From Mesorhizobium sp. WSM2240 (lineage in GTDB: Bacteria > Pseudomonadota > Alphaproteobacteria > Rhizobiales > Rhizobiaceae), in NCBI RefSeq assembly GCF_040438645.1, contig NZ_CP159253.1, positions 4,516,501 through 4,580,500 on the forward strand: a stretch of 64,000 bases of DNA, read 5' to 3'. The translations under genes and the position numbers were made by a program. The first letter of the stretch is position 1. Each line of letters begins with the position of its first letter. Below, in pieces: positions 25,286 through 40,662 of the stretch. Under the pieces are notes generated by a model. It was not told the DNA's origin. It ran no database searches and worked only from the letters and a program-made list of their open reading frames with translations.

Positions 25286-25512
25286 CCAAGGATCTGCGCC
25301 CGCCAGCGCCTCACCGTCATGCGGCGCCCGACAGAGCGCGTTCGTAGTAACTGCTCCTCCGCCGTCTCTCCAGATCTGATTGCTTCCGCCCCCTTACCCA
25401 ATGGTCAGGTTGGCTTGCGCAATCTCCTAAAAAGCGCCAGTCGGCGCAAAGATGCGGTTAACCGTCGTCGGCTACGCTCGCGCCTTGAATGGGCCGGGCA
25501 CCGCAAACGAAG

Positions 25513-26304
25513 ATGGTCAAGCAACTTATGGACTTTTCCGCCGTTGGCCGGGGGCGGGTCATTGTGCTGAGCGCACTCGGCACGCTTTGCTGCATCGCCG
25601 TGGCCTTCGGCATCGACAGCTATTCCTTCGGGACCGGGACATGGCGCTGGGGCTCGCAACCGCTCAACAATCTTATCATTCCCCTGCTGCTTGCCCCGCC
25701 ATTCTTCGGCTATCTGCTCAGCAAGCAGCGTGAACTCGCCATAGCGCATCGCGAACTCATGGTCGTCGCCTCGACCGACCCGCTCACCTCATGCCTGAAC
25801 CGCCGGGCGTTCACGGCCATGGTGGACCGCTACCTTGACCGCATCGCCGCCCGGAAGGACGGGCATTCCGGTGCGCTGCTGGTCATCGACGTCGATCACT
25901 TCAAGACGATCAACGACCGGTTCGGGCACGTTTGCGGCGACGAGGCGCTCAAGGCCATCGCCCAGGCGATCAGGCATGCGCTGCGCGAATTCGACATTTT
26001 CGGGCGCATCGGAGGCGAGGAATTCAGCGTCTTCCTGCCGGGCGTCAGCCCCGACCGCGCAGGCATTGTCGCCGACCGCATCCGCACGGAAGTGCTGGCC
26101 ACCGAACTCAATCTCGGCGAGGAAAGCTGCAGGCTCTCGGTGAGCGTCGGCGGCGTCACCTTCGACCGCGAAACCTCCTTCAGCGAACTCTACCGCCATG
26201 CCGACCAGCGGCTGTATGAGGCCAAGCGGAACGGCCGTAACCGCGTGGAGATCGTCCATCACGGTTCGTCCGCGTCACCGAACGCGCAGGTCAGCGTGCA
26301 CTAG
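25513..26304 (+). CDS. Membrane-bound diguanylate cyclase (GGDEF)
   Basis: The 263-residue protein has two hydrophobic segments (VIVLSALGTLCCIAVAFG; NNLIIPLLLAPPFFGYLL) and a GGDEF domain with active site IGGEEF. RxxD in REFD five residues before GGEEF is an intact inhibitory I-site for c-di-GMP feedback. The N-terminal part of the domain (STDPLTSCLNRRAF, VIDVDHFKTINDRFGH) is canonical. Start is ATG 25513; ATG 25528 is possible. It would make c-di-GMP at the inner membrane. No sensor domain beyond the short membrane region is visible. Confidence 0.93.
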   Translation: MVKQLMDFSAVGRGRVIVLSALGTLCCIAVAFGIDSYSFGTGTWRWGSQPLNNLIIPLLLAPPFFGYLLSKQRELAIAHRELMVVASTDPLTSCLNRRAFTAMVDRYLDRIAARKDGHSGALLVIDVDHFKTINDRFGHVCGDEALKAIAQAIRHALREFDIFGRIGGEEFSVFLPGVSPDRAGIVADRIRTEVLATELNLGEESCRLSVSVGGVTFDRETSFSELYRHADQRLYEAKRNGRNRVEIVHHGSSASPNAQVSVH

Positions 26305-27240: not shown

Positions 27241-28632
27241 ATGACCGGCACAGGGTCCTCGGACATAGACAGCGAGCGCAGGCTGGCGATCGCCACAAGG
27301 GCGGCGGCGCTGGGGATCTGGGATTGGAACCTGATCACCAACGAGATGATTTATTCCGACCGGGCGAAGGAAATCTGCGGGTTTCCGCTGGACGAGCCGG
27401 TCAACGTCGAGATGGTCCGCTCGATCACCCATCCCGACGACCTGCCGCAAGCCTCGGCGCAGGCCCGCCGCGCGATCGATCCGCAGATCAGATCCCGCGA
27501 CATCTACCGCTACCGCATCCGCCATTTCGCGACCGGCGAGGTTCGCTGGGTCGTCGCGCATGGCGAGGCGATCTTCGAGGAGGTGGATCGCGTCGAGAAA
27601 GCGGTGCGCTATGTCGGCACGCTGCAGGACGTTACCGAACAAGCCAAGGCGGAAGAGGCTGCGCTGGAAAGCGAGGCGCGGCTGCGGCTGGCGATGGAAG
27701 CCGCCGACATTGCCGTGTGGGAGGTCGACTTGGCCAACGATACGATCACCCATTCGCCGGAGTTGAACCGGCTGTGCGGCTTTCCCGAGGACGCCCGGCC
27801 GACCATCGAGGAATTTCGTTCGCGCTACGCTCCCGGCGAACGCGAACGGTTGAAAAAGGAGGGCGCGGAAGCGCTCGCCCGCGGTGAGACGAGACTACAG
27901 TCGGAATTCCGTCAGCTCTGGCCCGACGGCACGCAGAAATGGATGCTTTTGCGCGCCCAGTTCGTGCCCGGCGGCCAGGGAGCCGGGCAGCGGGTCATCG
28001 GCGTGTTGCTCGACATCACCGAGCGCAAGCGGGCGGAGGAGCGGCTGAAGATCATCGCGCGCGAACTCCAGCACCGGGTGAAAAACTCACTTGCCATCAT
28101 TCAGACCATCGCCAACCAGTCCTTCCGCGGCAAGACCGACATGGAAGAGGCGTTCGGCTCGTTCTCGGCCCGGCTGCGCGCGCTGGCCGCGGCCAACGAC
28201 GCGATCACGCTGGGCGATTTTTCCAGTGCGCAATTGGTCGACGTGGTGAACAAGGCGACGACGCCCTATCGCGACCCGAAAGGCGACCCCTTCGTGTTCT
28301 CGGGCGAGGATACCGCCGTCTCCAGCAAGAAGGCGGTTGCGATCACCATGGCGCTGCACGAGCTGTCGACCAACGCCGCCAAATATGGCGCGCTGAGCCG
28401 GCCGTCGGGGCGCGTCTCGATCTCATGGTCGGTCTCGCCGGATGGCGCTCTTAGCCTGCAATGGCGGGAGATCGGCGGGCCGCCGGTGAAGCAGCCGCGC
28501 AAGAAGGGATTTGGAACGCGGCTCCTCGAACGCGGTCTGTTTGCGCGCGGCGAAGGTTCGGTCACACTGCTCTTCGATGAGTGCGGACTGAAATGCGAGA
28601 TAAGCATCGGCAAGCCGCAGGAAGCCGTTTGA
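27241..28632 (+). CDS. PAS-domain HWE-family sensor histidine kinase
   Basis: The 463-residue soluble protein has two PAS domains (about 15-125, with WDWNLITNEMIYSD; about 140-260, with WEVDLANDTITHS) and a C-terminal HWE kinase core. The phosphoacceptor box is LQHRVKNSLAIIQTIANQ, the ATPase N-box is ALHELSTNAAKYGAL and the WxE motif is LQWREIGG. HWE kinases are an alphaproteobacterial family often linked to light or general stress sensing. No cognate response regulator is adjacent. A strong terminator follows. Confidence 0.93.
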   Translation: MTGTGSSDIDSERRLAIATRAAALGIWDWNLITNEMIYSDRAKEICGFPLDEPVNVEMVRSITHPDDLPQASAQARRAIDPQIRSRDIYRYRIRHFATGEVRWVVAHGEAIFEEVDRVEKAVRYVGTLQDVTEQAKAEEAALESEARLRLAMEAADIAVWEVDLANDTITHSPELNRLCGFPEDARPTIEEFRSRYAPGERERLKKEGAEALARGETRLQSEFRQLWPDGTQKWMLLRAQFVPGGQGAGQRVIGVLLDITERKRAEERLKIIARELQHRVKNSLAIIQTIANQSFRGKTDMEEAFGSFSARLRALAAANDAITLGDFSSAQLVDVVNKATTPYRDPKGDPFVFSGEDTAVSSKKAVAITMALHELSTNAAKYGALSRPSGRVSISWSVSPDGALSLQWREIGGPPVKQPRKKGFGTRLLERGLFARGEGSVTLLFDECGLKCEISIGKPQEAV

Positions 28633-29047: not shown

Positions 29048-29686
29048 TCAACCCTTGCGGGCGACCACGCCGTCGCAGAACGCCTCGACGATGAAGGTGA
29101 TCTGGGCGGCTATCTCGGCCGGCGGCACGGCCATGAAGCGCCGCTGCTGGCCGAGGCTGACGATACCGTGCACCGCCGAAAACAGCGATTTTGCAAGCAG
29201 CGACAGCCGCTCCTCGCTTTCCTCCGGCAAAAGCAGCCGCAGCGGCTTGACGATGTGGCCGAGCAGATGGATGTGCTCGGCGACCTGCCATTCCGGCACA
29301 TCCTTCGAGGCGCGGAGGCCGAGCTCGAAAATCGCCGACCACAGCCGGGGGTTGGCCAACACGAACTCGAAATAGGTCTGGCCGAGCAGCGTCAGCGCGC
29401 GCTTTGGCAGTGCGCTCGAAGGATCGCGCGCGAAGGCCTCGGCGACCGCCGCCTCGAGACGCGCCACCGTGCGCGAATTGACCGCCGCCACCAGCGCGTC
29501 CATGTCCGGAAAGATGTTGTAGATGGCGCCGACCGCGCAGCCGGCCTCACCTGCCACGTCGCGCGCCGTCAGCGCCGGATAACCGTTCTCGGCGATCCTG
29601 CGCTCGGCGATCTCGATCAGCGACCGCCTGAGCTGCTCGCGCCGTTCTTGCGTCTTCTTCGCCAATGATCCATCCTTGGCCGCCAT
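29048..29686 (-). CDS. TetR-family repressor of the divergent lipid operon
   Basis: The 212-residue protein has an N-terminal helix-turn-helix, IAERRIAENGYPALTARDVA and GEAGCAVGAIYNIFPDMDAL, followed by a TetR_C-like ligand domain. I start it at ATG 29686 (MAAKDGSLAKK); the ATG at 29710 would place operator sites inside the gene. There is no clear ribosome site, so the transcript may be leaderless. Two identical dyads lie directly upstream, between this gene and the phospholipid operon, so it most likely represses itself and that operon. Confidence 0.88.
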   Translation of the reverse strand: MAAKDGSLAKKTQERREQLRRSLIEIAERRIAENGYPALTARDVAGEAGCAVGAIYNIFPDMDALVAAVNSRTVARLEAAVAEAFARDPSSALPKRALTLLGQTYFEFVLANPRLWSAIFELGLRASKDVPEWQVAEHIHLLGHIVKPLRLLLPEESEERLSLLAKSLFSAVHGIVSLGQQRRFMAVPPAEIAAQITFIVEAFCDGVVARKG

Positions 29687-29690
29687 GATT

Positions 29691-29725
29691 TGAACACTGT
29701 TCACAAACATCTTGAACAGTGTTCA
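29691..29725. promoter_or_regulatory. Paired TetR operators
   Basis: TGAACACTGTTCA (29691-29703) and TGAACAGTGTTCA (29713-29725) are 13-bp dyads with 6-bp arms and are exact reverse complements of each other. They are 22 bp apart, two helical turns, which favours cooperative binding of two dimers over the divergent promoters. Confidence 0.85.
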
Positions 29726-29792
29726 TAATTATGGCAATAGAGACGTGAACGTGGTTCAAGTCAAGGTTTGCGGACTCGGGGGAGCCGTTCTG

Positions 29793-30401
29793 ATGCCGAC
29801 ACTTTACGCGCTGAAACCTGCATTCCAGTCATCGCTCCGGCCGCTGGTCGACATGCTCGCCGCCAATGGCGCGACCGCCAACCAGGTGACGCTCGCCGCG
29901 GCAGTACTGTCGATCGCGGCCGGCGCCGCGATGGCGGCGTTTCCAACTGTCGGCTGGGTGTTTCTGCTGCTGCCGGCCGTTCTGTTCATCCGCATGGCGC
30001 TGAACGCGATAGACGGCATGCTGGCGCGAGAGCATGGCCAGGCCTCACGGCTCGGAATGTATCTGAACGAACTCTGCGATGTCGTCTCCGATCTTGCCCT
30101 CATTCTTCCCTTCGCGCTGGTCGCGACCTTCCCCGCCTGGGGCGTGGCCGCCTTCGCCATCGCGGCAGTGTTCGCCGAGTTTGCCGGCGTGCTCGGCGTG
30201 GCCGCCGGCTCCGGCCGCAACTATGCCGGCCCCTTCGGAAAGAGCGACCGCGCGCTGGCTCTCGGCGCGATTGCGGTGGCGGTCGCAACGGGCTTCGCCA
30301 TTCCGGTGATCGCCTCGTGGATTTTCCCGGCGATGGCGCTCCTGTCGCTCGTCACTGTCATCAACCGCGTCCGCAGCGGCCTCGCCGTCGGCGCGGCCTG
30401 A
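29793..30401 (+). CDS. CDP-alcohol phosphatidyltransferase family protein
   Basis: The 202-residue protein has about six membrane segments. ATG 29793 follows GGGGGAG. The CDP-OH-P signature is present but altered: NAIDGMLAREHGQASRLGMY then LNELCDVVSD, where the family pattern is DxxDGxxAR...GxxxDxxxD. The first and third Asp are Asn here. Enzymes of this family transfer a phosphatidyl group from CDP-diacylglycerol to an alcohol such as inositol phosphate or glycerol phosphate. The substitutions appear typical of this operon-linked subfamily (recalled), so altered substrate or chemistry is more likely than inactivation. First gene of the operon. Confidence 0.88.
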   Translation: MPTLYALKPAFQSSLRPLVDMLAANGATANQVTLAAAVLSIAAGAAMAAFPTVGWVFLLLPAVLFIRMALNAIDGMLAREHGQASRLGMYLNELCDVVSDLALILPFALVATFPAWGVAAFAIAAVFAEFAGVLGVAAGSGRNYAGPFGKSDRALALGAIAVAVATGFAIPVIASWIFPAMALLSLVTVINRVRSGLAVGAA

Positions 30402-30424
30402 TTTGCGTCCTGAGGAACCCGCAA

Positions 30425-32209
30425 ATGCCGCACGAGACCCTGTCTGCCGCGCCGCCTGCCGCCGGGCGACCCGCCGTCGAGCGCACCTTCCTCACTCATG
30501 ACGGCGCCGAAATATTTTACCGCTGCTGGCCGGCAGCAAGCGCTGCCCCAAAGGGAGCAATTGTGCTGTTCCACCGCGGCCACGAGCATGGCGGGCGCGT
30601 CGCCCATCTGGTCGACGAACTCGCAATGCCGGACTACGCCTTCTACGCCTGGGACGCGCGCGGCCATGGCAGGTCGCCGGGCCAACGCGGCTATTCCCCG
30701 TCCTTCGCCGCATCGGTGCGCGACGTCGATTGCTTCATGCACGAAATCGAGGCGCGAGACGGCTTCAAGCCCGGCGACATGGCGGTCGTCGCCCAATCCG
30801 TCGGCGCCGTGCTTGCCGTAACCTGGGTCCACGACTACGCACCCGACATCCGCGCCCTGGTGCTGGCCTCGCCCGCCTTCTCCGTAAAACTCTACGTACC
30901 CTTCGCTAGGGAAAGCATCGCGCTGTGGCAGAAGCTGCGCGGCGTGTTCTTCGTCAATTCCTATGTGAAGGCCAAATTCCTGACCCACGACCCAGAGCGC
31001 ATAGCCTCTTTCGAGGCCGACCCGCTGATCACAAGGCCGATCGCCTCGAACATACTCGTCGAGCTTTACCGGCACGCCGCCCGCGTGGTGGGCGATGCCC
31101 GCGCCATCACCGTGCCGACGCAATTGCTGATCTCTGGCAGCGACTGGGTGGTCAGGCATGCGCCGCAGCACGAATTCTTCGTCAATCTTGGCAGTTCCAT
31201 CAAAGAGCGCCACGTGCTGAAGGGCTTTTTCCACGACACGCTGGGCGAGCGCGACCGTGCGCCGGCGGTCGCGGAGGTACGGCGCTTCATCTCGGAGCAA
31301 TTCGCCAAGCCGGTCGCCCGCGCAGACCTGACCCAGGCGCATCGGTCGGGCTTCACCCGCGACGAGGCCGACCGGCTCGCTTCGCCGCTCGATCCCATGT
31401 CTCCGAAGGGCCTCTATTGGGCGCTGAACCGCGCTTTCATAAAACTCGGCGCATGGTTCTCCAACGGCCTCAAGACCGGCGTTCAAACCGGCTTCGATTC
31501 CGGCTCCACCCTCGACTATGTCTATGAGAACGAAGCGCGCGGCGGCGGGCCTATTGGCCGCGCCGTCGACCGTATCTTCCTCGATGCAATCGGCTGGCGC
31601 GGCATTCGCCAGCGAAAGATCCACCTGGAAGATATGATCCCGGCCGCCATCGCGCGCCTGAAGCTGGCGGGCCGGCCGGCAAACGTGCTCGACATCGCCG
31701 CGGGCCACGGCCGCTACGTGCTCGACGCGATCGCCAAATGCCCCGAACAGCCCGCCGCCGTTCGCCTGCAGGACTATTCCGACATCAATGTCGCGGCTGG
31801 CCAGAAGCTGATCGCAGCGCGCGATCTGCCGCCGAGCTTTTCGTTCCACCGCGCCGACGCCTTCGACGGCGATACGCTCGCCGCGCAGGACCCCGCGCCC
31901 GATCTCGCCATCGTCTCCGGCCTCTACGAACTCTTTCCGGACAATGCGCTGATCGCGCGGTCTCTCGGCGGGCTCGCGCGCTCCATGACGCCCGGCGCGC
32001 TGCTGATCTACACCAACCAGCCGTGGCACCCGCAGCTCGAGATGATCGCGCGCAGCCTGACCTCGCATCGCGGCAACGAGGCCTGGGTGATGCGCCGGCG
32101 CACGCAAGGCGAGATGGACCAGCTCGTCGAGGCCGCCGGCTTTCGCAAGCTCGACCAGCGCATCGACCAGTGGGGCATCTTCACCGTGTCGCTGGCCGAG
32201 CGCATCTGA
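30425..32209 (+). CDS. Alpha/beta hydrolase - SAM methyltransferase fusion
   Basis: The 594-residue protein combines an N-terminal alpha/beta hydrolase of the monoacylglycerol-lipase type (about 1-300: AIVLFHRGHEHGGR, YAWDARGHGRSPG, VVAQSVGAVLAVTW with Ser in SVG) and a C-terminal methyltransferase (about 400-594: VLDIAAGHGRYVLDAI, RLQDYSDINVAAGQKLIA). The linker holds GRAVDRIFLDAIGWRGIRQR. ATG 30425 is 24 nt after the upstream stop. The hydrolase could deacylate or hydrolyse a lipid and the other domain methylate its product. Fusions of this kind are annotated in other proteobacteria, but their substrates are not established as far as I know. Confidence 0.9.
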   Translation: MPHETLSAAPPAAGRPAVERTFLTHDGAEIFYRCWPAASAAPKGAIVLFHRGHEHGGRVAHLVDELAMPDYAFYAWDARGHGRSPGQRGYSPSFAASVRDVDCFMHEIEARDGFKPGDMAVVAQSVGAVLAVTWVHDYAPDIRALVLASPAFSVKLYVPFARESIALWQKLRGVFFVNSYVKAKFLTHDPERIASFEADPLITRPIASNILVELYRHAARVVGDARAITVPTQLLISGSDWVVRHAPQHEFFVNLGSSIKERHVLKGFFHDTLGERDRAPAVAEVRRFISEQFAKPVARADLTQAHRSGFTRDEADRLASPLDPMSPKGLYWALNRAFIKLGAWFSNGLKTGVQTGFDSGSTLDYVYENEARGGGPIGRAVDRIFLDAIGWRGIRQRKIHLEDMIPAAIARLKLAGRPANVLDIAAGHGRYVLDAIAKCPEQPAAVRLQDYSDINVAAGQKLIAARDLPPSFSFHRADAFDGDTLAAQDPAPDLAIVSGLYELFPDNALIARSLGGLARSMTPGALLIYTNQPWHPQLEMIARSLTSHRGNEAWVMRRRTQGEMDQLVEAAGFRKLDQRIDQWGIFTVSLAERI

Positions 32210-32223
32210 GGTTTTTGTCCGAA

Positions 32224-33549
32224 ATGCATGCGCAGGAAACGGTGGCAGAACCCTACGGGCCGGTGGCGAAACGCGCGGCCTTGTGGCTGCTGTTCCTGGC
32301 GCCGTTCTTCTATCTGACCTATGGCGGCGCCAACTGGCTCGCCTCGCGGCGCGAGGATGTCGGCAGCATCGTCTTCGAGTGGGAGCGCGCTATTCCGTTC
32401 ATCGCCTGGACCATTGTGCCCTACTGGTCGATCAATCTGTTTTATGCGCTGTCGCTGTTCGTCAACGATACGAAGGGTGGCCTCGACCGCCTTGCCGGAC
32501 GCTATCTGACGGCGCAGGTCGTCGCCGTCTCCTGCTTCCTCGCCTTTCCGCTGGCCGCGACTTTCGTGCGGCCCGAAACCACCGGCCTGCCGGGCTTTAT
32601 GTTCGCCGTGCTCGGCGGCTTCGACAAGCCGTTCAACCAGGCGCCCTCGCTGCACATAGCGCTGCTCGTCATCATCTGGGATCATCTGCGCCACCGGCTT
32701 CCCGAGCCGGCAAAGATTGTCTGGCACGGCTGGTGCCTGCTCATCGGCGCGTCGGTGCTGACCACATGGCAGCACCATTTCATTGACATCCCGACCGGCG
32801 CATTGCTTGGCCTGTCCGCGTTGTGGCTGTTTCCCCGCGCCGGCGCCCTGCCCTTTGCCGGCTTCGCGCTGACCGGCGATCCTTGGGCAAGACGGCTCGG
32901 CGCATGTTATGCGGCCGGCGCCATGCTGCTCCTCGCAGCGTCAGTCATCGGCGCATTCGCTTCAGCGATCTGGCTGGTGCTGCTGTGGCCGGCGCTGGCG
33001 CTTGCTATCGTCGCCTTCGGCTATTTCGGCGCGGGCGCAAAAATCTTCCAGAAAGAAGCTGACGGCACGGTTTCTCTGGCCAGCCGTCTTCTGCTCGCGC
33101 CATATCGGCTCGGTGCGAAGGTCAACGCCTGGGCCTGGACGCGGCGCCTGCCGGCGCGAGTCGAGATCGCAGACGGCGTGTTTCTCGGCCGCTTTCCACG
33201 ATCAAGTGAATCGAGCGGCTACGGCTCGGTAATCGATCTCGCCTCCGAATTCGCAAGACCATTTGGGCCGACGCCGGCATGGGCGAGCATCGCCGCCATG
33301 GACCTCGTGCAGCCCACCGCGACCGACCTCGAACGGGCTGCGCAGGCGATCGAGGCGGCGCGGGCGCATGGAACCGTGCTGGTCTGTTGCGCGCTGGGCT
33401 TCCAGCGCAGCGCCGGCGCCGTCGCCCATTGGCTGATTTCGACCGGAAGGGCAAAGGACCTGGCCGCAGCGGAGGCGATGCTGCGCAAGGCCGGACGGCC
33501 GGTCCATCTTGCGCCGCCGCTTGTTGCAGCCGGGGAAACCGCGCAATGA
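32224..33549 (+). CDS. PAP2-type phosphatase / dual-specificity phosphatase fusion
   Basis: The 441-residue protein has an N-terminal multi-span PAP2 domain with NQAPSLHIALLV (PSLH in place of PSGH, as in the Aur1-like PAP2_3 group) and TTWQHHFIDIPTG (Hx3D). The C-terminal cytosolic part is a dual-specificity phosphatase with the CX5R loop CALGFQRSAG; the residue before the catalytic Cys is Cys (CC) where HC is usual. PTPMT1, a related DSP, dephosphorylates phosphatidylglycerol phosphate, so a lipid-phosphate substrate is plausible. It begins 14 nt after the upstream gene and overlaps the next by 4 nt. Confidence 0.88.
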   Translation: MHAQETVAEPYGPVAKRAALWLLFLAPFFYLTYGGANWLASRREDVGSIVFEWERAIPFIAWTIVPYWSINLFYALSLFVNDTKGGLDRLAGRYLTAQVVAVSCFLAFPLAATFVRPETTGLPGFMFAVLGGFDKPFNQAPSLHIALLVIIWDHLRHRLPEPAKIVWHGWCLLIGASVLTTWQHHFIDIPTGALLGLSALWLFPRAGALPFAGFALTGDPWARRLGACYAAGAMLLLAASVIGAFASAIWLVLLWPALALAIVAFGYFGAGAKIFQKEADGTVSLASRLLLAPYRLGAKVNAWAWTRRLPARVEIADGVFLGRFPRSSESSGYGSVIDLASEFARPFGPTPAWASIAAMDLVQPTATDLERAAQAIEAARAHGTVLVCCALGFQRSAGAVAHWLISTGRAKDLAAAEAMLRKAGRPVHLAPPLVAAGETAQ

Positions 33550-33986
33550 CGCCGGTGCTGGAAACCTGCAACGGCTTTGCCGGCTGGCTGGCGCGTCAGG
33601 CGCTGTGGCCGACTGTTGTCGTGGCGGCGGTGCTGGCCGCCGCGCCTCTGGCCGCGCTCGCCGGCGGGGTCGCGCCGAATAGTTGGCCGGCGGCGGCGAT
33701 CGCGATCGTCGCCACGGTGAGCGGGCTCGCCGTTCTCGCTCTTTCGGCGCTCATCCGCTTCGACGCAGCGCTCTTCCACCTGATGGCGAGTTACGAAGGA
33801 GAAACGGCCGGCGGTGCAGCGGTCGACGATGCGCTGGCGCGCATGCGGCTGAAGCCGCAACCGGAACAGACACGAAGCCTCGCCGAGCGCATGGCCGGCG
33901 CGCGGCGGCTGGTTTTCCGGCAGCGCCTCGCCTTGGGCGTCTTCGCCATTGCGGTCACGGCCGCACCGCTGGCGTTCCAACCATGA
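33546..33986 (+). CDS. Small membrane protein of the lipid operon
   Basis: The 146-residue protein has two N-terminal hydrophobic segments (LWPTVVVAAVLAAAPLAALA; AAAIAIVATVSGLAVLAL), a polar middle (MRLKPQPEQTRSLAERMAGA) and a C-terminal hydrophobic end. No catalytic motif is visible and I do not recognise the family. Its ATG overlaps the preceding stop (ATGA), and its own stop overlaps the next ATG, so it is translated with the pathway enzymes and may be a scaffold or partner of the phosphatase or acyltransferase. Confidence 0.8.
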   Translation: MTPVLETCNGFAGWLARQALWPTVVVAAVLAAAPLAALAGGVAPNSWPAAAIAIVATVSGLAVLALSALIRFDAALFHLMASYEGETAGGAAVDDALARMRLKPQPEQTRSLAERMAGARRLVFRQRLALGVFAIAVTAAPLAFQP

Positions 33987-34690
33987 GCGACGCGATGGCT
34001 GTTCGAGATAAGCTCGAAACCCCAAGCAGTACGAGGCCCGCCGGCCGCCGCCTGCTCGGCGCGATCGCCTCGGCTGCACTTGCCATGCTGGCGCGCGCCG
34101 TCACCGGCGTACGGCCGATCTGGAGCGGTTCGGCGCCGTCGCAGCGCCAGCGCATCTACTTCGCCAATCACGCCAGCCATGGCGATTTCATTCTGCTGTC
34201 GGCCAGCCTGCCGGCGAGCGAACGCGCCCGTACCCGCGCCGTCGCCGCCGCCGACTATTGGGGCAAGACCAGGCTGCGCCGCTTCATTGCCGAGGACCTG
34301 CTTGGTTCCGTGCTGGTCCATCGCGCCTGGACGGAGCCCGCCCAGAACCCGATCACGATCATGCTGGACGTGCTGGGTAGGGGCGATTCCCTCATCATCT
34401 TCCCGGAGGGAACGCGCAACATGACCGACGAGCCGCTGCTGCGCTTCCGCTCGGGCCTTTACAATCTGTCGATCGCCCGGCCCGATGTCGAACTCGTCCC
34501 CTGCTGGATCGAGAACATGTCGCGCGTGCTGCCCAAGGGCCAGTTCCTGCCGGTGCCGCTTTTGTGCCGCGTCATCTTCGGCGCGCCCATAGCGGTGGCC
34601 GAAAACGAGGACCGCCGCGATTTCCTGAACCGCGCCCATGCCGCACTTCTGGCGCTCGACCCGTCCTTGAGCCGGAGATCTTCCCGATGA
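33983..34690 (+). CDS. 1-acyl-sn-glycerol-3-phosphate acyltransferase (PlsC-like)
   Basis: The 235-residue protein carries the acyltransferase blocks NHASHGDFILL (HxxxxD) and IIFPEGTRN, plus VPCWIENMSRVLPKG. PlsC-type enzymes acylate lysophosphatidate to phosphatidate, the precursor of CDP-diacylglycerol made by the next gene. A lysolipid other than lysophosphatidate is possible. ATGA overlaps join it to both neighbours. The open frame extends far upstream, but that part is out of frame with the real upstream gene. Confidence 0.9.
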   Translation: MSDAMAVRDKLETPSSTRPAGRRLLGAIASAALAMLARAVTGVRPIWSGSAPSQRQRIYFANHASHGDFILLSASLPASERARTRAVAAADYWGKTRLRRFIAEDLLGSVLVHRAWTEPAQNPITIMLDVLGRGDSLIIFPEGTRNMTDEPLLRFRSGLYNLSIARPDVELVPCWIENMSRVLPKGQFLPVPLLCRVIFGAPIAVAENEDRRDFLNRAHAALLALDPSLSRRSSR

Positions 34691-35619
34691 TGCGCGAAAC
34701 GACGCTTCTGGTCCTTGGCCTTGCCGGCGTTCTTACAATCGCCAGCGTTGTGGCCGGAATATTGACCTGGCGCGCGGCCGAACCAAGTCCGACGCTGATC
34801 AATCTCAACCAGCGCATCAAGGCGTGGTGGGTGATGGTGGCGCTGATCGCCATCGCCTTCCTGTTCGGCAAGGACGGCATGATCGTGCTGTTCGCGCTGA
34901 TCTCGTTTGCGGCGCTGCGCGAATTCGTGACGCTGACCCATTCGCGGCGCAGCGACCATTGGGTGCTGCTCGGCATGTTCGGCATCATCATTCCAATGCA
35001 GTACTGGCTGGTGTGGACCGAATGGTACGGCCTCTTTACCATCTTCATTCCGGTCTATTGTTTCCTGATCATGCCGGCGATCACCGCGCTGCATGGCGAC
35101 ACCGAACGTTTCCTTGAGCGCATCGCCGCGCAGCAATGGGCGGTGATGATGGCGGTCTATTGCGTCAGCCACGTGCCGGCGCTGATGACCCTGCCGATCC
35201 CCGGCTATGAAAATCGCGGCCTGCTGCTGATCGCCTTCCTGATCGTCACCGTCCAGGGCAGCGATGTCTTGCAGTATATTTTCGGCAAGCTGTTCGGAAA
35301 GCATCGGTTTTCGCCGACCGTATCGCCATCCAAGACCTGGGAAGGGCTGATCGGCGGTCTGTTGAGCGCCAGCGCGCTCGGCGCGCTTTTGTCCGGGCTG
35401 ACGCCGTTTTCGCCGCTGGAAGCGGCAGGCGTCGCCTTCCTTGCCTGCCTGATGGGCTTTCTTGGCGGCCTTGTCGCCTCGGCCATCAAGCGCGACCAGG
35501 GCGTCAAGGACTGGGGTCATCTGATCGAGGGCCATGGCGGCATGATGGACCGCGCCGACAGCCTTGTCTTCGCGGCCCCGGTCTTCTTCCACATCGTCCG
35601 CTACTTCTGGACGGTGTGA
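34687..35619 (+). CDS. Phosphatidate cytidylyltransferase (CdsA family)
   Basis: The 310-residue protein has about eight membrane segments and the CdsA signature: SDVLQYIFGKLFGKHRFSPT, SPSKTWEGLIGG and the C-terminal KRDQGVKDWGHLIEGHGGMM then DRADSLVFAAP. It makes CDP-diacylglycerol from phosphatidate and CTP, the donor used by the first gene of the operon. As a housekeeping cdsA is expected elsewhere (next to frr/uppS), this is probably a dedicated second copy. ATG 34687 overlaps the acyltransferase stop. Confidence 0.92.
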   Translation: MMRETTLLVLGLAGVLTIASVVAGILTWRAAEPSPTLINLNQRIKAWWVMVALIAIAFLFGKDGMIVLFALISFAALREFVTLTHSRRSDHWVLLGMFGIIIPMQYWLVWTEWYGLFTIFIPVYCFLIMPAITALHGDTERFLERIAAQQWAVMMAVYCVSHVPALMTLPIPGYENRGLLLIAFLIVTVQGSDVLQYIFGKLFGKHRFSPTVSPSKTWEGLIGGLLSASALGALLSGLTPFSPLEAAGVAFLACLMGFLGGLVASAIKRDQGVKDWGHLIEGHGGMMDRADSLVFAAPVFFHIVRYFWTV

Positions 35620-35769
35620 GAGATCGTTTGAGAATTCGCTCCGGCGAGGCAGATGGCGTGGTTTTCGAGAACCGGAGCGCAGCGGACATTTGGGTCCGTG
35701 AGCACCGGAAGCGGAGAAAACAGCGTCAGGCGCCCGCCGGAGAATTATCAAACGGTCTCTGAGAGCCCG

Positions 35770-36234
35770 TCACTTCACGATGACAATGCTGGTGTTGCTC
35801 GGGCCGAAGGTCTGGACGAGTTGGTAGAGATCCGCGGCATGATCCGGGTGCAGCCGGATGCAGCCATGCGAGGCGGGCCGGCCGAGCCGCTTGATGTGCG
35901 GCGTGGCGTGAACTGCGTAGCCGCCATGGAAGAAGATCGAATGCGGCATCGGCGCATTGTCGTATTTGCGCGAATACCACATTTTGTGCATGCGCGTCGG
36001 CTTGAACGAACCGGTCGGCGTCCTGTAGCCCTTGCCGGCGGTCGAGACTTTCCAGGCGAAAGTCGGGCGGCCGTCGATCAGCACATCCATCCTCTGTTGG
36101 GAGATGGAGATGCGGGCGACGATCTGGCTGCCGGAGGCATGCGCGCTGCTGGATCCGGCCTCGAGAAAGAGCGCGATGCCGGCAAGAGCGGCTGCGATGA
36201 CGTTGATGAGTTTCGTGGAAAGCGTGGCGTTCAT
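35770..36234 (-). CDS. YkuD-type L,D-transpeptidase
   Basis: The 154-residue exported protein has a signal peptide (LINVIAAALAGIALFLEAGS) and a compact L,D-transpeptidase catalytic domain: RISISQQRMDVLIDGRPTFA, TPTGSFKPTRM, then HGGYAVHATPHIKRLGRPAS followed by HGCIRLHPDHA with catalytic His and Cys. It forms 3-3 peptidoglycan crosslinks. ATG 36234 gives the signal peptide; the longer open frame upstream is not coding. It is convergent with the lipid operon. Confidence 0.93.
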   Translation of the reverse strand: MNATLSTKLINVIAAALAGIALFLEAGSSSAHASGSQIVARISISQQRMDVLIDGRPTFAWKVSTAGKGYRTPTGSFKPTRMHKMWYSRKYDNAPMPHSIFFHGGYAVHATPHIKRLGRPASHGCIRLHPDHAADLYQLVQTFGPSNTSIVIVK

Positions 36235-37769: not shown

Positions 37770-38549
37770 ATGTTTATACCCAATCTACTTTCCGCTGATA
37801 GCGGAGGCGAGACCATACTGCGCGCGCGGATCGTCATTGTTGAGGATGAGCCCGATTTGCGGGATGCTGTCGCCGAATATCTCGGCGCGAACGGCTATGA
37901 CGTGACCGCGGTGGGCGATGCGCAGGCGATGCGCGATCTGGCCGCCACCGAGAGCTTTCATCTGGCAATTCTCGACATCGCCATGCCCGGCGAAGACGGC
38001 TTGTCGCTCGGCCGCTGGCTGCGCTCGAAAATGCCGATAGGCATCATCTATGCCACGGCGGCCGGCGCCTCGATCGACCGCATTGTCGGCCTGGAACTCG
38101 GCGCCGACGACTACATGGTCAAACCCTATGAATTGCGCGAATTGCTGGCGCGCGTCCGCAGCGTGCTCCGGCGCGTGCCGCCGCCGGAAGAAATCCAGCC
38201 TAAAAAAATCGCGGCCGAAGCGCGTCCGCGCCGCATCGTGTCCTTCGGCGGCTTCAGCGCCGATCTCGACGGCCGCATGATAACCGGCCCCGGCGGTGTG
38301 CTGGTCGACATGGCCAAGAGCGAGTTCGACGTGCTCGAAGTGTTCCTGACCCGGGCCAACCGGCTGCTCAGCCGCGCCGCATTGTCCGAGGCCATCGGCT
38401 TTGCCGATGAGCCGGAAGTTTCGCGCGCCGTCGACATCCGTATCATGCGGCTGCGCAAGAAGATCGAGGACGATCCGGCCAACCCGAAATTCCTGCGTAC
38501 GGTGCGCGGCGAAGGTTATATCTTCTCACTTCCAGAGGACGGTCATTGA
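37770..38549 (+). CDS. OmpR-family response regulator
   Basis: The 259-residue regulator has an intact receiver: acidic pair VEDEPDL, phosphoacceptor Asp in LAILDIAMPGEDGLSLG, and Lys in MVKPYELREL. A winged-helix output follows (MAKSEFDVLEVFLTRANRLL, DIRIMRLRKKIEDDP, VRGEGYIF). A charged insert, PPEEIQPKKIAAEARPRR, links the domains. Start is ATG 37770; no closer alternative fits. It overlaps or abuts the hybrid kinase gene and is presumably its partner. Confidence 0.93.
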   Translation: MFIPNLLSADSGGETILRARIVIVEDEPDLRDAVAEYLGANGYDVTAVGDAQAMRDLAATESFHLAILDIAMPGEDGLSLGRWLRSKMPIGIIYATAAGASIDRIVGLELGADDYMVKPYELRELLARVRSVLRRVPPPEEIQPKKIAAEARPRRIVSFGGFSADLDGRMITGPGGVLVDMAKSEFDVLEVFLTRANRLLSRAALSEAIGFADEPEVSRAVDIRIMRLRKKIEDDPANPKFLRTVRGEGYIFSLPEDGH

Positions 38550-38577
38550 CGATGTCCGCCCTTTGCTCGGGTATCGC

Positions 38578-40662
38578 ATGATCGGCACCACGCCTCCCAG
38601 CGTCGACCTTGAGATCGCCGATCCGGGCGTGACAGTGGCGGCCATGCGCATTGCGCGCAGGTTAAGGCATGCCGATGACTGGCAGCCGGAGATCGGCGGT
38701 ATTCTGGAACTGCTCGGGCGGTCGCTGCACGTCCATCGTACTATCCTGTTCCGCCTGCGAGAGGATCCCGAACAGGGCCTCGTCCAGTCGATCTCCGGAT
38801 ACTGGCTGGACGAGACCCTGGAAGGCATTTCAGCGCCACCAACGATCATATTGCAGTCGCATATCCACTCCGACCCGCTCCTTGGCAGGCTGGCAGTAGA
38901 GGGCCGGCAGGGCAAGATATTTGCCGGCCTGACCAGCGAGATAGATGGTTTCCTTCGGCATGATTTCGAAAGGCAGAAGATCAAGACCTTCATGTCCGTA
39001 ACGGTGTTCGCCCACGGCCACGCCTGGGGCACGGTGGCAATCAACGACTGCGTCCGGGAACGCACCTGGACCGACGAGGAGAAGGCCGCGCTTGAAATCG
39101 TGGCCCTGGCTATGGGCGACGCCATCGAGCGCTCGCTTTCCGAGCGGCATGTCGGAGAGATCATCCACGCGGCCATGCTGCAGGCCTCGCTCGATGCCAT
39201 CATCGTCATCGACGAAAGTGGTAAGATTCTCGAGTTCAATCCCGCCGCCGAAAAGATGTTTGGCTACGGGCGCGCCGAAATTATCGGCAAGGATGTCCTC
39301 GACACCATCATTCCCGAATTTTACCGCGAGGGGCACGCCAACGGCGGCGAGTACATGCGGCGCCGTGGCGCGCCGATGATCGGCCGCCGGCTTGAAACTA
39401 TTTCACAGGATGCATCCGGGCAGATCTTCCCGATCGAACTGACGGCGACCGAAGTCAAGGTCGCCGACCGGTGCCTCTTCATCGGTTCGATCCGCGATCT
39501 GCGCGAGCGGCGGCAAGCCGAGGAGGAGATCGACCGCCAGCGGGAAAAACTGCACCAGAACGAAAAAATGGCCGCCATGGGCTCCCTGCTTGCCGGCGTG
39601 TCGCACGAACTCAACAATCCGCTGGCCGTCGTCGTGGCGCAATCGACGCTGCTGCACGAATTCGCACCCGATCCTCCGACGAAACTGCGCGCCGAAAAGG
39701 TGCGCGCCGCGGCCGAGCGCTGCGGCCGCATCGTCAAGAGCTTTCTCGGCATGGTGCGGCTGCACCAGACCGCGCAGACGGAAATGGATCTCAATTCCGT
39801 TCTCCGCGCCGCACTCGAGATCACCGCCTATGGTGCACGAAGCAGCGGCATCGGCATCGACACCGAATTCGCCGAGGGACCTCTCACCATTCTCGGCGAT
39901 GCCGACCACCTGACCCAGGTGGCAGCAAATTTCCTGGTCAACAGCCAGCACGCGCTGGCGGCGTGGAATGGCGAGCGCCGCATCAAGGTGCGCAGCTTCC
40001 GCACCGAAGACGGGAATTGCGGCTTTTCGGTCGCTGACACCGGCCCAGGCATACCCGAAACCATCCGCCACCGCATCTTCGAATCCTATTTCACCACCAA
40101 GCCGGTCGGCGTGGGCACCGGCATCGGTCTGTCGATCTCGAAATCGATCGTCGAGCGGCACAATGGCAGGTTGCGCTTCGAGGCGATGGAGCCCACCGGC
40201 GCACGCTTCGTTGTCGAACTGCCGGCCGCCAGCGGGACCATGGTCACGCCGGGCGCGAGCGCCCATTCCGGTGGGCTCCGGCATGCGCTGATCATCGACG
40301 ACGAGCCTGACGTCGCCGGCTCCCTTTCGGATCTTCTGGAACTGATGGGCATCAAATCACATATCGTCCCGGCCTGGACCTCGGCGGCCGACATTTTCGA
40401 CGGATACGAGGCCGATATAATCTTCAGCGATCTGCGCATGCCTGGCTACAGCGGCATCACGGTCTATCGGCAGTTGATGGCTGAACGGCCGGACCTCGCC
40501 CGGCGCTTCGTGCTGGTCACCGGCGACATGATCGGTGCGAAGGTCGAAATCGATGCGCTCCCGGCACATCTCAGGCCGCAGATACTGGAAAAGCCGTTCG
40601 CCACTCTCGACGTGCGCGGCGTGCTTGCGGTCATCAACGACCAGGTCGATTTCGCCCGGTAG
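38578..40662 (+). CDS. Hybrid sensor histidine kinase (GAF-PAS-HisKA-HATPase-REC)
   Basis: The 694-residue protein has no clear membrane segment. Order: GAF-like region (about 25-190), PAS (about 205-315: LQASLDAIIVIDESGKILEF), a coiled linker, HisKA (GVSHELNNPLAVVVAQ), HATPase_c (NFLVNSQHAL, DTGPGIP, GVGTGIGLSIS) and a C-terminal receiver (ALIIDDEPDVAG, phospho-Asp in IIFSDLRMPGYSG, Lys in LEKPFA). The receiver suggests phosphorelay or feedback. ATG 38578 is 28 nt after the response regulator stop; TTG 38563 is an alternative. A hairpin follows. Confidence 0.92.
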   Translation: MIGTTPPSVDLEIADPGVTVAAMRIARRLRHADDWQPEIGGILELLGRSLHVHRTILFRLREDPEQGLVQSISGYWLDETLEGISAPPTIILQSHIHSDPLLGRLAVEGRQGKIFAGLTSEIDGFLRHDFERQKIKTFMSVTVFAHGHAWGTVAINDCVRERTWTDEEKAALEIVALAMGDAIERSLSERHVGEIIHAAMLQASLDAIIVIDESGKILEFNPAAEKMFGYGRAEIIGKDVLDTIIPEFYREGHANGGEYMRRRGAPMIGRRLETISQDASGQIFPIELTATEVKVADRCLFIGSIRDLRERRQAEEEIDRQREKLHQNEKMAAMGSLLAGVSHELNNPLAVVVAQSTLLHEFAPDPPTKLRAEKVRAAAERCGRIVKSFLGMVRLHQTAQTEMDLNSVLRAALEITAYGARSSGIGIDTEFAEGPLTILGDADHLTQVAANFLVNSQHALAAWNGERRIKVRSFRTEDGNCGFSVADTGPGIPETIRHRIFESYFTTKPVGVGTGIGLSISKSIVERHNGRLRFEAMEPTGARFVVELPAASGTMVTPGASAHSGGLRHALIIDDEPDVAGSLSDLLELMGIKSHIVPAWTSAADIFDGYEADIIFSDLRMPGYSGITVYRQLMAERPDLARRFVLVTGDMIGAKVEIDALPAHLRPQILEKPFATLDVRGVLAVINDQVDFAR

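Follow-up and report, generated by a model that had tools for sequence, protein, structure and literature searches.

An expanded ynbABCD-type operon of Mesorhizobium sp. WSM2240 as a candidate TetR-controlled route to a minor phospholipid

Which product is made by an operon that combines an acyltransferase, a CDP-diacylglycerol synthase and a CDP-alcohol phosphatidyltransferase (CAPT) is the question raised by a six-gene locus of Mesorhizobium sp. WSM2240. The locus was analysed within a stretch of 64,000 nucleotides (contig NZ_CP159253.1, positions 4,516,501 to 4,580,500; hereafter the window, whose numbering is used for the genes below). A divergent TetR gene and six close-packed open reading frames (ORFs) in the order A-C-D-S-P-B were all present, as an earlier note on this DNA had described. 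That note suggested a possible undescribed phospholipid pathway with a gene set for which no characterised precedent was known. A dedicated phospholipid route is still the best explanation, but the gene set is not unseen, as four of its parts are those of Escherichia coli ynbABCD. The operon is read here as an expanded member of the ynbABCD family that would make a minor phospholipid by a dedicated route under TetR repression, with a probability of about 0.58. This reading draws on gene content, orthology, active-site residues, operators and co-occurrence as seen in the sequences.

Relation to E. coli ynbABCD and predicted pathway

Orthologues of A, B, C and D lie side by side in E. coli K-12 as ynbABCD (NC_000913.3, 1477621-1482201), which places the locus among the ynbABCD-type operons. 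The identities to YnbA, YnbB, YnbC and YnbD are 47, 39, 56 and 38%, respectively, over most of each protein, and because of these matches the window set can be described as the already known ynb set with an acyltransferase (P) and a small protein (S) added. The gene order differs (A-B-C-D in E. coli) and, unlike in the window, no P, S or TetR gene is annotated beside ynbABCD. Plasmid sets of Citrobacter sp. TSA-1 (L122), Burkholderia ambifaria (L121) and Shinella zoogloeoides (L128; L and G numbers are our labels for loci and genomes) share A, B, C, D and P in the orders A-B-P-C-D-S, (B-P)' A-C-D-S (divergent) and A' C-D-S-P-B, with a small gene after D in place of S and no TetR gene annotated in the cluster. 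The similarity of this small gene to the window S was clear in Shinella (E 2e-10), moderate in Burkholderia (E 3e-8 in a two-sequence profile test) and weak in Citrobacter (E 0.0025); outside the Rhizobiales, S was assigned putatively, through chained similarity and position. The Burkholderia copy (L121:12513-16052) adjoins the cellulose-synthesis genes bcsB and bcsZ.

YnbB is described as a CdsA paralogue that makes CDP-diacylglycerol and N-acetylglucosamine-diphosphate-diacylglycerol (GlcNAc-PP-DAG), the precursor of MPIase (PMC6362211, PMC7018664), and as unable to replace CdsA for bulk phospholipid (PMC6362211, PMC7018664, PMC10881803). Activation of ynbA by BglJ-RcsB has also been reported (PMC12871917). 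The earlier note had considered that the set might prove to be the known locus for a described lipid. The locus is indeed known, although its E. coli genes have kept their provisional y-names, and no lipid product of the whole ynb operon was found described in a limited search of the literature on ynbA-D, ynbB and the gene families, mostly titles and the beginnings of abstracts.

The domains assigned to the gene products in the earlier note were confirmed; the cut-off of an NCBIfam model was reached by none of the seven window proteins and by none of E. coli YnbA-D. All six ORFs of the operon are on the forward strand. P (33983-34690) is a PlsC/AGPAT-type lysophospholipid acyltransferase with HX4D and FPEGTR motifs (PF01553, 57.6 bits), and its residues H63, D68 and P141-R145 were invariant in 84 aligned rows (2 of 86 were dropped as short). 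B (34687-35619) is a YnbB-type CdsA paralogue (PF01148, 227.8 bits) carrying the catalytic CTP_transf_1 motifs of CDP-diacylglycerol synthase, and its residues K268, R269, D275, D288 and D291 do not vary across 89 aligned rows. Each of the eight genomes checked has two CTP_transf_1 genes, of which one belongs to the cluster (G262 gives three rows, two of which are pieces of one gene), and B is therefore extra to the housekeeping CdsA. A (29793-30401; PF01066) is a YnbA-type CAPT in which N-D-N-D replaces D-D-D-D; its start at 29793 is favoured over an upstream TTG at 29712 because the E. coli protein begins MTLYQIKP.

C (30425-32209) is a YnbC-type alpha/beta hydrolase (PF12146, 228.5 bits) fused to a Methyltransf_20 domain (PF12147, 471 bits). 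Its catalytic residues S125, D240 and H270 were present in 103, 104 and 103 of 104 rows (5 of 109 were dropped as short). The best PDB match of the hydrolase half was a monoacylglycerol lipase, and the methyltransferase half was unmatched in the same search at E 1e-4. D (32224-33549) joins a YnbD-type membrane PAP2-like domain to a C-terminal dual-specificity phosphatase (DSP) domain with the CX5R loop (C389-R395) and the DSP fold, the fold rows spanning residues 304-441. The DSP domain falls below the Pfam cut-off in the window member; at E up to 1, DSPc was matched in all 13 relatives and PAP2_3 in ten. S (33546-33986) is a small hydrophobic protein of 146 amino acids, probably in the membrane, with no Pfam or NCBIfam match. 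The four genes described earlier as linked by ATGA overlaps are indeed joined in this way, at three junctions (D-S at 33546, S-P at 33983, P-B at 34687), and the gaps between A and C and between C and D are 23 and 14 bp.

In the proposed pathway, P would acylate lysophosphatidate to phosphatidate, and B would convert this to CDP-diacylglycerol apart from the housekeeping CdsA pool. A would transfer the phosphatidyl group to a small phosphate-bearing alcohol, giving phosphatidyl-X-phosphate, from which the DSP domain of D would strip the phosphate of X on the cytoplasmic side. C, and probably also the PAP2 domain of D together with S, would tailor, deacylate, methylate or move the product. We infer the substrates, the order of the steps, their sidedness and the repression by TetR.

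Distribution and the A-B-P core

The co-occurrence of all six families, proposed as a check in the earlier note, was surveyed in the Rhizobiales for the best 80 of at least 568 confirmed relatives (two of the loci, L015 and L045, are truncated at the end of a contig). A and C were present in all 80 loci, D in 79, S in 75, B in 64 and P in 63, and all six genes occurred together in 60. Beyond this order A, B, C, D and P are found widely in Pseudomonadota. Of 20 further regions with a PF12147 match, 14 hold these five genes, and 11 of the 14 have a small gene matching the window or the Burkholderia S at E 1e-3; the window S alone reaches this threshold in three of the 11 (L131, L138, L148). The remaining regions are partial (L141, L142, L143, L144, L147) or spurious (L146). 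A cyanobacterial plasmid carries A-B-P with a lone methyltransferase domain, and Fusobacterium carries C-A-B.

Among 398 Pseudomonadota genomes, C (PF12147) was found in 27 and A in 37, and all 27 C-bearing genomes fall among the 37 A-bearing ones. Below these 37 the scores of the A profile drop from 171 to 76 bits. The chance of such an overlap is 6e-34 for independent genomes, a figure that serves as a guide only since the genomes are related. Weak PF12147 matches in G029 (34 bits), G443:C12 (29.5 bits) and G262:C1:1792197 (19.8 bits) were not used as operons. Ten genomes have A without C, and because eight of them keep A, B and P together, the A-B-P triad is the core of the system and C, D and S are additions. 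Of the other two, one has broken remnants (L187) and one a lone divergent A (L188). The recognition of this core is new. What probably acts as a unit is an acyltransferase dedicated to the operon, a CdsA paralogue and a transferase that breaks the CAPT signature, and the pathway question becomes testable in E. coli K-12 as well as in Mesorhizobium, where the operon comes with a repressor gene.

Several loci depart from the common arrangement. In Rhizobium sp. RCAM05350 (L127:9792-13108), D, P and B are broken across frames, with A and C whole. A 717-amino-acid WG-repeat protein is inserted between C and D at L139:10208-12361, in a genome of 2.1 Mb, and at L183:858-1397 an A-B-P triad is followed by a gene whose product weakly matches VTT/DedA-like membrane proteins (29 bits against a cut-off of 33.9). 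One genome has YdbL and YdbH genes immediately upstream of A-B-P (L186:8838-12703). Of the 28 A-bearing genomes searched (out of 37), 11 gave a YdbH match, ten of them over the cut-off, and the genome of the window gave none; YdbH was treated as a neighbour and rejected as a pathway partner because the other ten matches lie far away or on another contig. The neighbours of the Moraxella and Kosakonia plasmid copies (patatin, short-chain dehydrogenase/reductase (SDR) and fatty-acid genes) were likewise set aside, as they do not recur in other annotated records; the Moraxella patatin and SDR gave no tblastn match in the other loci screened.

The altered active site of A and the nature of the product

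The CAPT signature D1xxD2G1xxAR...G2xxxD3xxxD4 contains eight residues described as absolutely conserved, of which the first three aspartates are said to bind metal and D4 to be the likely base (PMC4634129). A has the CAPT fold, and its signature positions read N71, D74, N92 and D96 in all 108 aligned rows (105 distinct), including E. coli YnbA, so that the D-D-D-D signature is broken by asparagine at D1 and D3. The same N-D-N-D is found in A of the eight genomes with A-B-P only. Comparison with other CAPTs was made at 30 loci in eight genomes (loci were obtained for 30 of 33 places), using a pattern in which positions D2 and D4 had to be D or N and any residue was allowed at D1 and D3: 24 loci read D-D-D-D, and the six of the A family read N-D-N-D and carry an arginine four residues ahead of the first asparagine. 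The lone divergent A mentioned above (L188:9240-9908), with no B, P or C nearby, reads A-D-N-D and is the single exception encountered.

A second N-D-N-D branch (L237-L244; L245-L265) could be recognized from 13 CAPTs that score 54-76 bits with the A profile. Its members, taken at 170 bits or more with a profile of their own (a split 22nd copy in G310 was left out), read R, N, D, N, [E/D], D in 21 of 21 cases examined and have an extra arginine after D4. Within the fetched 1.5 kb flanks, B was present at 19 of these 21 loci and both P and B at 16. At E 1e-10, the second-branch profile matches only the two N-D-N-D branches, in 57 of the 398 Pseudomonadota genomes, including G344 (A-D-N-D) and G168 (a broken copy). 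Sampling of the branches covered Pseudomonadota genomes, a cyanobacterial and a fusobacterial record and a small number of plasmid records. Asparagine at the first and third metal-binding aspartates in two branches, as read from the alignments, is a new observation that calls the absolute conservation of the eight signature residues into question. It also offers a simple sequence test for annotating A-type proteins apart from PgsA and phosphatidylinositol-phosphate (PIP) synthases.

These residues allow a bolder reading, which we hold tentatively and regard as possible rather than probable. The A-type proteins could form a separate CAPT superfamily with a rebuilt metal site and the signature R-x3-N-x2-D-G-x2-A...G-x3-N-[E/D]-x2-D, in two branches, in which the arginine one turn ahead of the first asparagine may take the place of a metal ion. 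With the private CdsA and acyltransferase they would make a new phospholipid class, which the hydrolase-methyltransferase would go on to modify in the ynb branch. Such a superfamily would be present in roughly every seventh Pseudomonadota genome sampled, and also in E. coli.

Other readings differ in the alcohol that A would use. The operon could make an inositol phospholipid, with A as a PIP synthase acting on inositol-1-phosphate and D as a PIP phosphatase. Among named families, A comes nearest to archaetidylinositol phosphate synthase (74.8 bits), followed by PIP synthase (44.2 bits), its best fold matches are PIP synthases, and the genome of the window has an inositol-1-phosphate synthase gene. 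However, both of these scores lie far under the curated cut-offs of the two families (180 and 170 bits), and inositol-1-phosphate synthase (PF01658) occurs in just 5 of the 37 A-bearing genomes, which disfavours inositol as a general answer. RsPIPS of Renibacterium and PgsA1 of Mycobacterium tuberculosis (MtPgsA1) are 17-19% identical to A, and in comparison with them A has asparagine at metal ligands D1 and D3 and an arginine one turn ahead of D1. R94 of MtPgsA1, a residue reported to be conserved among enzymes that use inositol phosphate (PMC6506517), is not kept in the A branch; its counterpart in the window A is V97. The acceptor-phosphate arginine pair of MtPgsA1 (R155 and R195) has counterparts in R153 (108 of 108 rows) and R192 (106 of 108), with R195 aligned to R192 and R155 one column off R153, where the alignment is weak. 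Taken together, an inositol product appears highly unlikely. Glycerol-3-phosphate is a general metabolite, which would suit the wide host range, and A could use it like PgsA in a back-up route to anionic phospholipid, with the DSP domain acting like PTPMT1, the mitochondrial phosphatidylglycerolphosphate (PGP) phosphatase, to give extra phosphatidylglycerol. PTPMT1 is the top-ranked fold match of the DSP domain, although tied with many protein dual-specificity phosphatases, and E. coli YnbA matches the pgsA model with 31 bits (E 3e-7, cut-off 109). This route is nevertheless unlikely: PGP synthase matches A worse than PIP synthase does in both fold and sequence, PgsA-like D-D-D-D CAPTs are already present in all eight genomes checked, and a separate methyltransferase and hydrolase would be needless for phosphatidylglycerol. 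Unlike PTPMT1, the phosphatase domain of D is fused to a membrane PAP2-like domain.

Two further readings give the locus another role altogether. As proposed for YnbB, it could serve the synthesis of MPIase, a GlcNAc-PP-DAG glycolipid, since overproduced YnbB raises MPIase and does not substitute for CdsA in bulk phospholipid (PMC6362211, PMC7018664). Loss of ynbB alone, however, is reported to leave the MPIase level without significant change (PMC6362211), and no role would remain for the genes A, C, D and P that co-occur with B; this is the least probable of the readings considered. A module for lipid turnover or remodelling, in which C deacylates, P reacylates, D dephosphorylates and A and B return the products to CDP-diacylglycerol metabolism, would fit the hydrolase half of C, nearest to monoacylglycerol lipases, and P, nearest to lysophospholipid acyltransferases. 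It is very doubtful, as the core that persists alone, A-B-P, is a synthetic and not a degradative set.

The preferred reading, a dedicated route to a minor phospholipid, also has points that weigh against it. Of the eight signature residues reported as invariant in CAPTs, A is missing two, and its reaction may therefore be non-standard. The fold and sequence matches of the phosphatase domain of D are tied with, or weaker than, those of protein dual-specificity phosphatases, and the fold matches fail to separate lipid from protein phosphatases. The reported formation of GlcNAc-PP-DAG by YnbB (PMC6362211) is left unexplained by the scheme. D, S and the hydrolase half of C are absent in Pseudanabaena L126 and in the loci L143 and L144, D and S in Fusobacterium L124 and in L142, and C, D and S in the A-B-P-only genomes; these genes therefore cannot be indispensable in every case. 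In Fusobacterium L124 no P was detected, neither P nor S stands beside ynbABCD in E. coli K-12, L141 yielded only A and C, and one Rhizobium group has no B or P at the locus. Both such Rhizobium genomes checked have another CTP_transf_1 gene away from the locus, which in one of the two belongs to a triad of the second branch; in that genome (L237; A-C locus L003, L162, on another contig) the gap is explained because the second-branch A-P-B triad supplies P and B.

TetR control and neighbouring genes

The repressor gene claimed for this operon is present (29048-29710, reverse strand; Pfam TetR_N 38.3 bits, TetR_C_33 39.0 bits), and its true start is probably the in-frame ATG at 29687, which is clear of operator 1. 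Three predicted operators with the pattern TGAAC-N3-GTTCA lie between TetR and A: operator 1 (TGAACACTGTTCA, 29691-29703), operator 2 (TGAACAGTGTTCA, 29713-29725), 22 bp from the first, and operator 3 (TGAACGTGGTTCA, 29746-29758), 33 bp from the second. The first two are the exact operators noted earlier, and the third is a less alike copy that had gone unmentioned. The exact pattern occurs at four places in the whole 6.70 Mb genome, three of which are these intergenic operators, and the reversed pattern, taken as a control, occurs twice. A promoter-like sequence (TTCACA-18-CATAAT, 29700-29729, forward strand) lies under operators 1 and 2, predicted from a match to 10 of 12 consensus letters; two promoter-like sites were found in 29600-35900, against 0.7 expected.

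A homologous TetR gene stands beside the operon in only 3 of the 80 Rhizobiales loci (L014, L015, L036), and one that is 28-30% identical adjoins a reduced A-B-P-C set in two more distant genomes (L143 and L144). In all five of these TetR-bearing loci the intergenic stretch contains TGAAC-N3-GTTCA sites (three, three, three, two and one), with a centre triplet that varies among them, and none of the 77 Rhizobiales loci without a homologous TetR has such a site. This recurrence with TetR and absence without it supports TetR as a local, dedicated switch, which would probably act by repression. The recurring TetR-operator pairing, as read from these loci, is new; TetR control is not a general trait of the operon family. 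On a Moraxella osloensis plasmid, a TetR/AcrR gene is located just upstream of A (L123:6395-6940), unmatched by the window TetR at E 1e-3.

In the window the operon is flanked by signalling genes on both sides, with a GGDEF protein (25489-26304) and a PAS HWE histidine kinase (27241-28632) on one side and a response regulator (37770-38549) and a PAS/GAF histidine kinase ORF (38401-40662) on the other.

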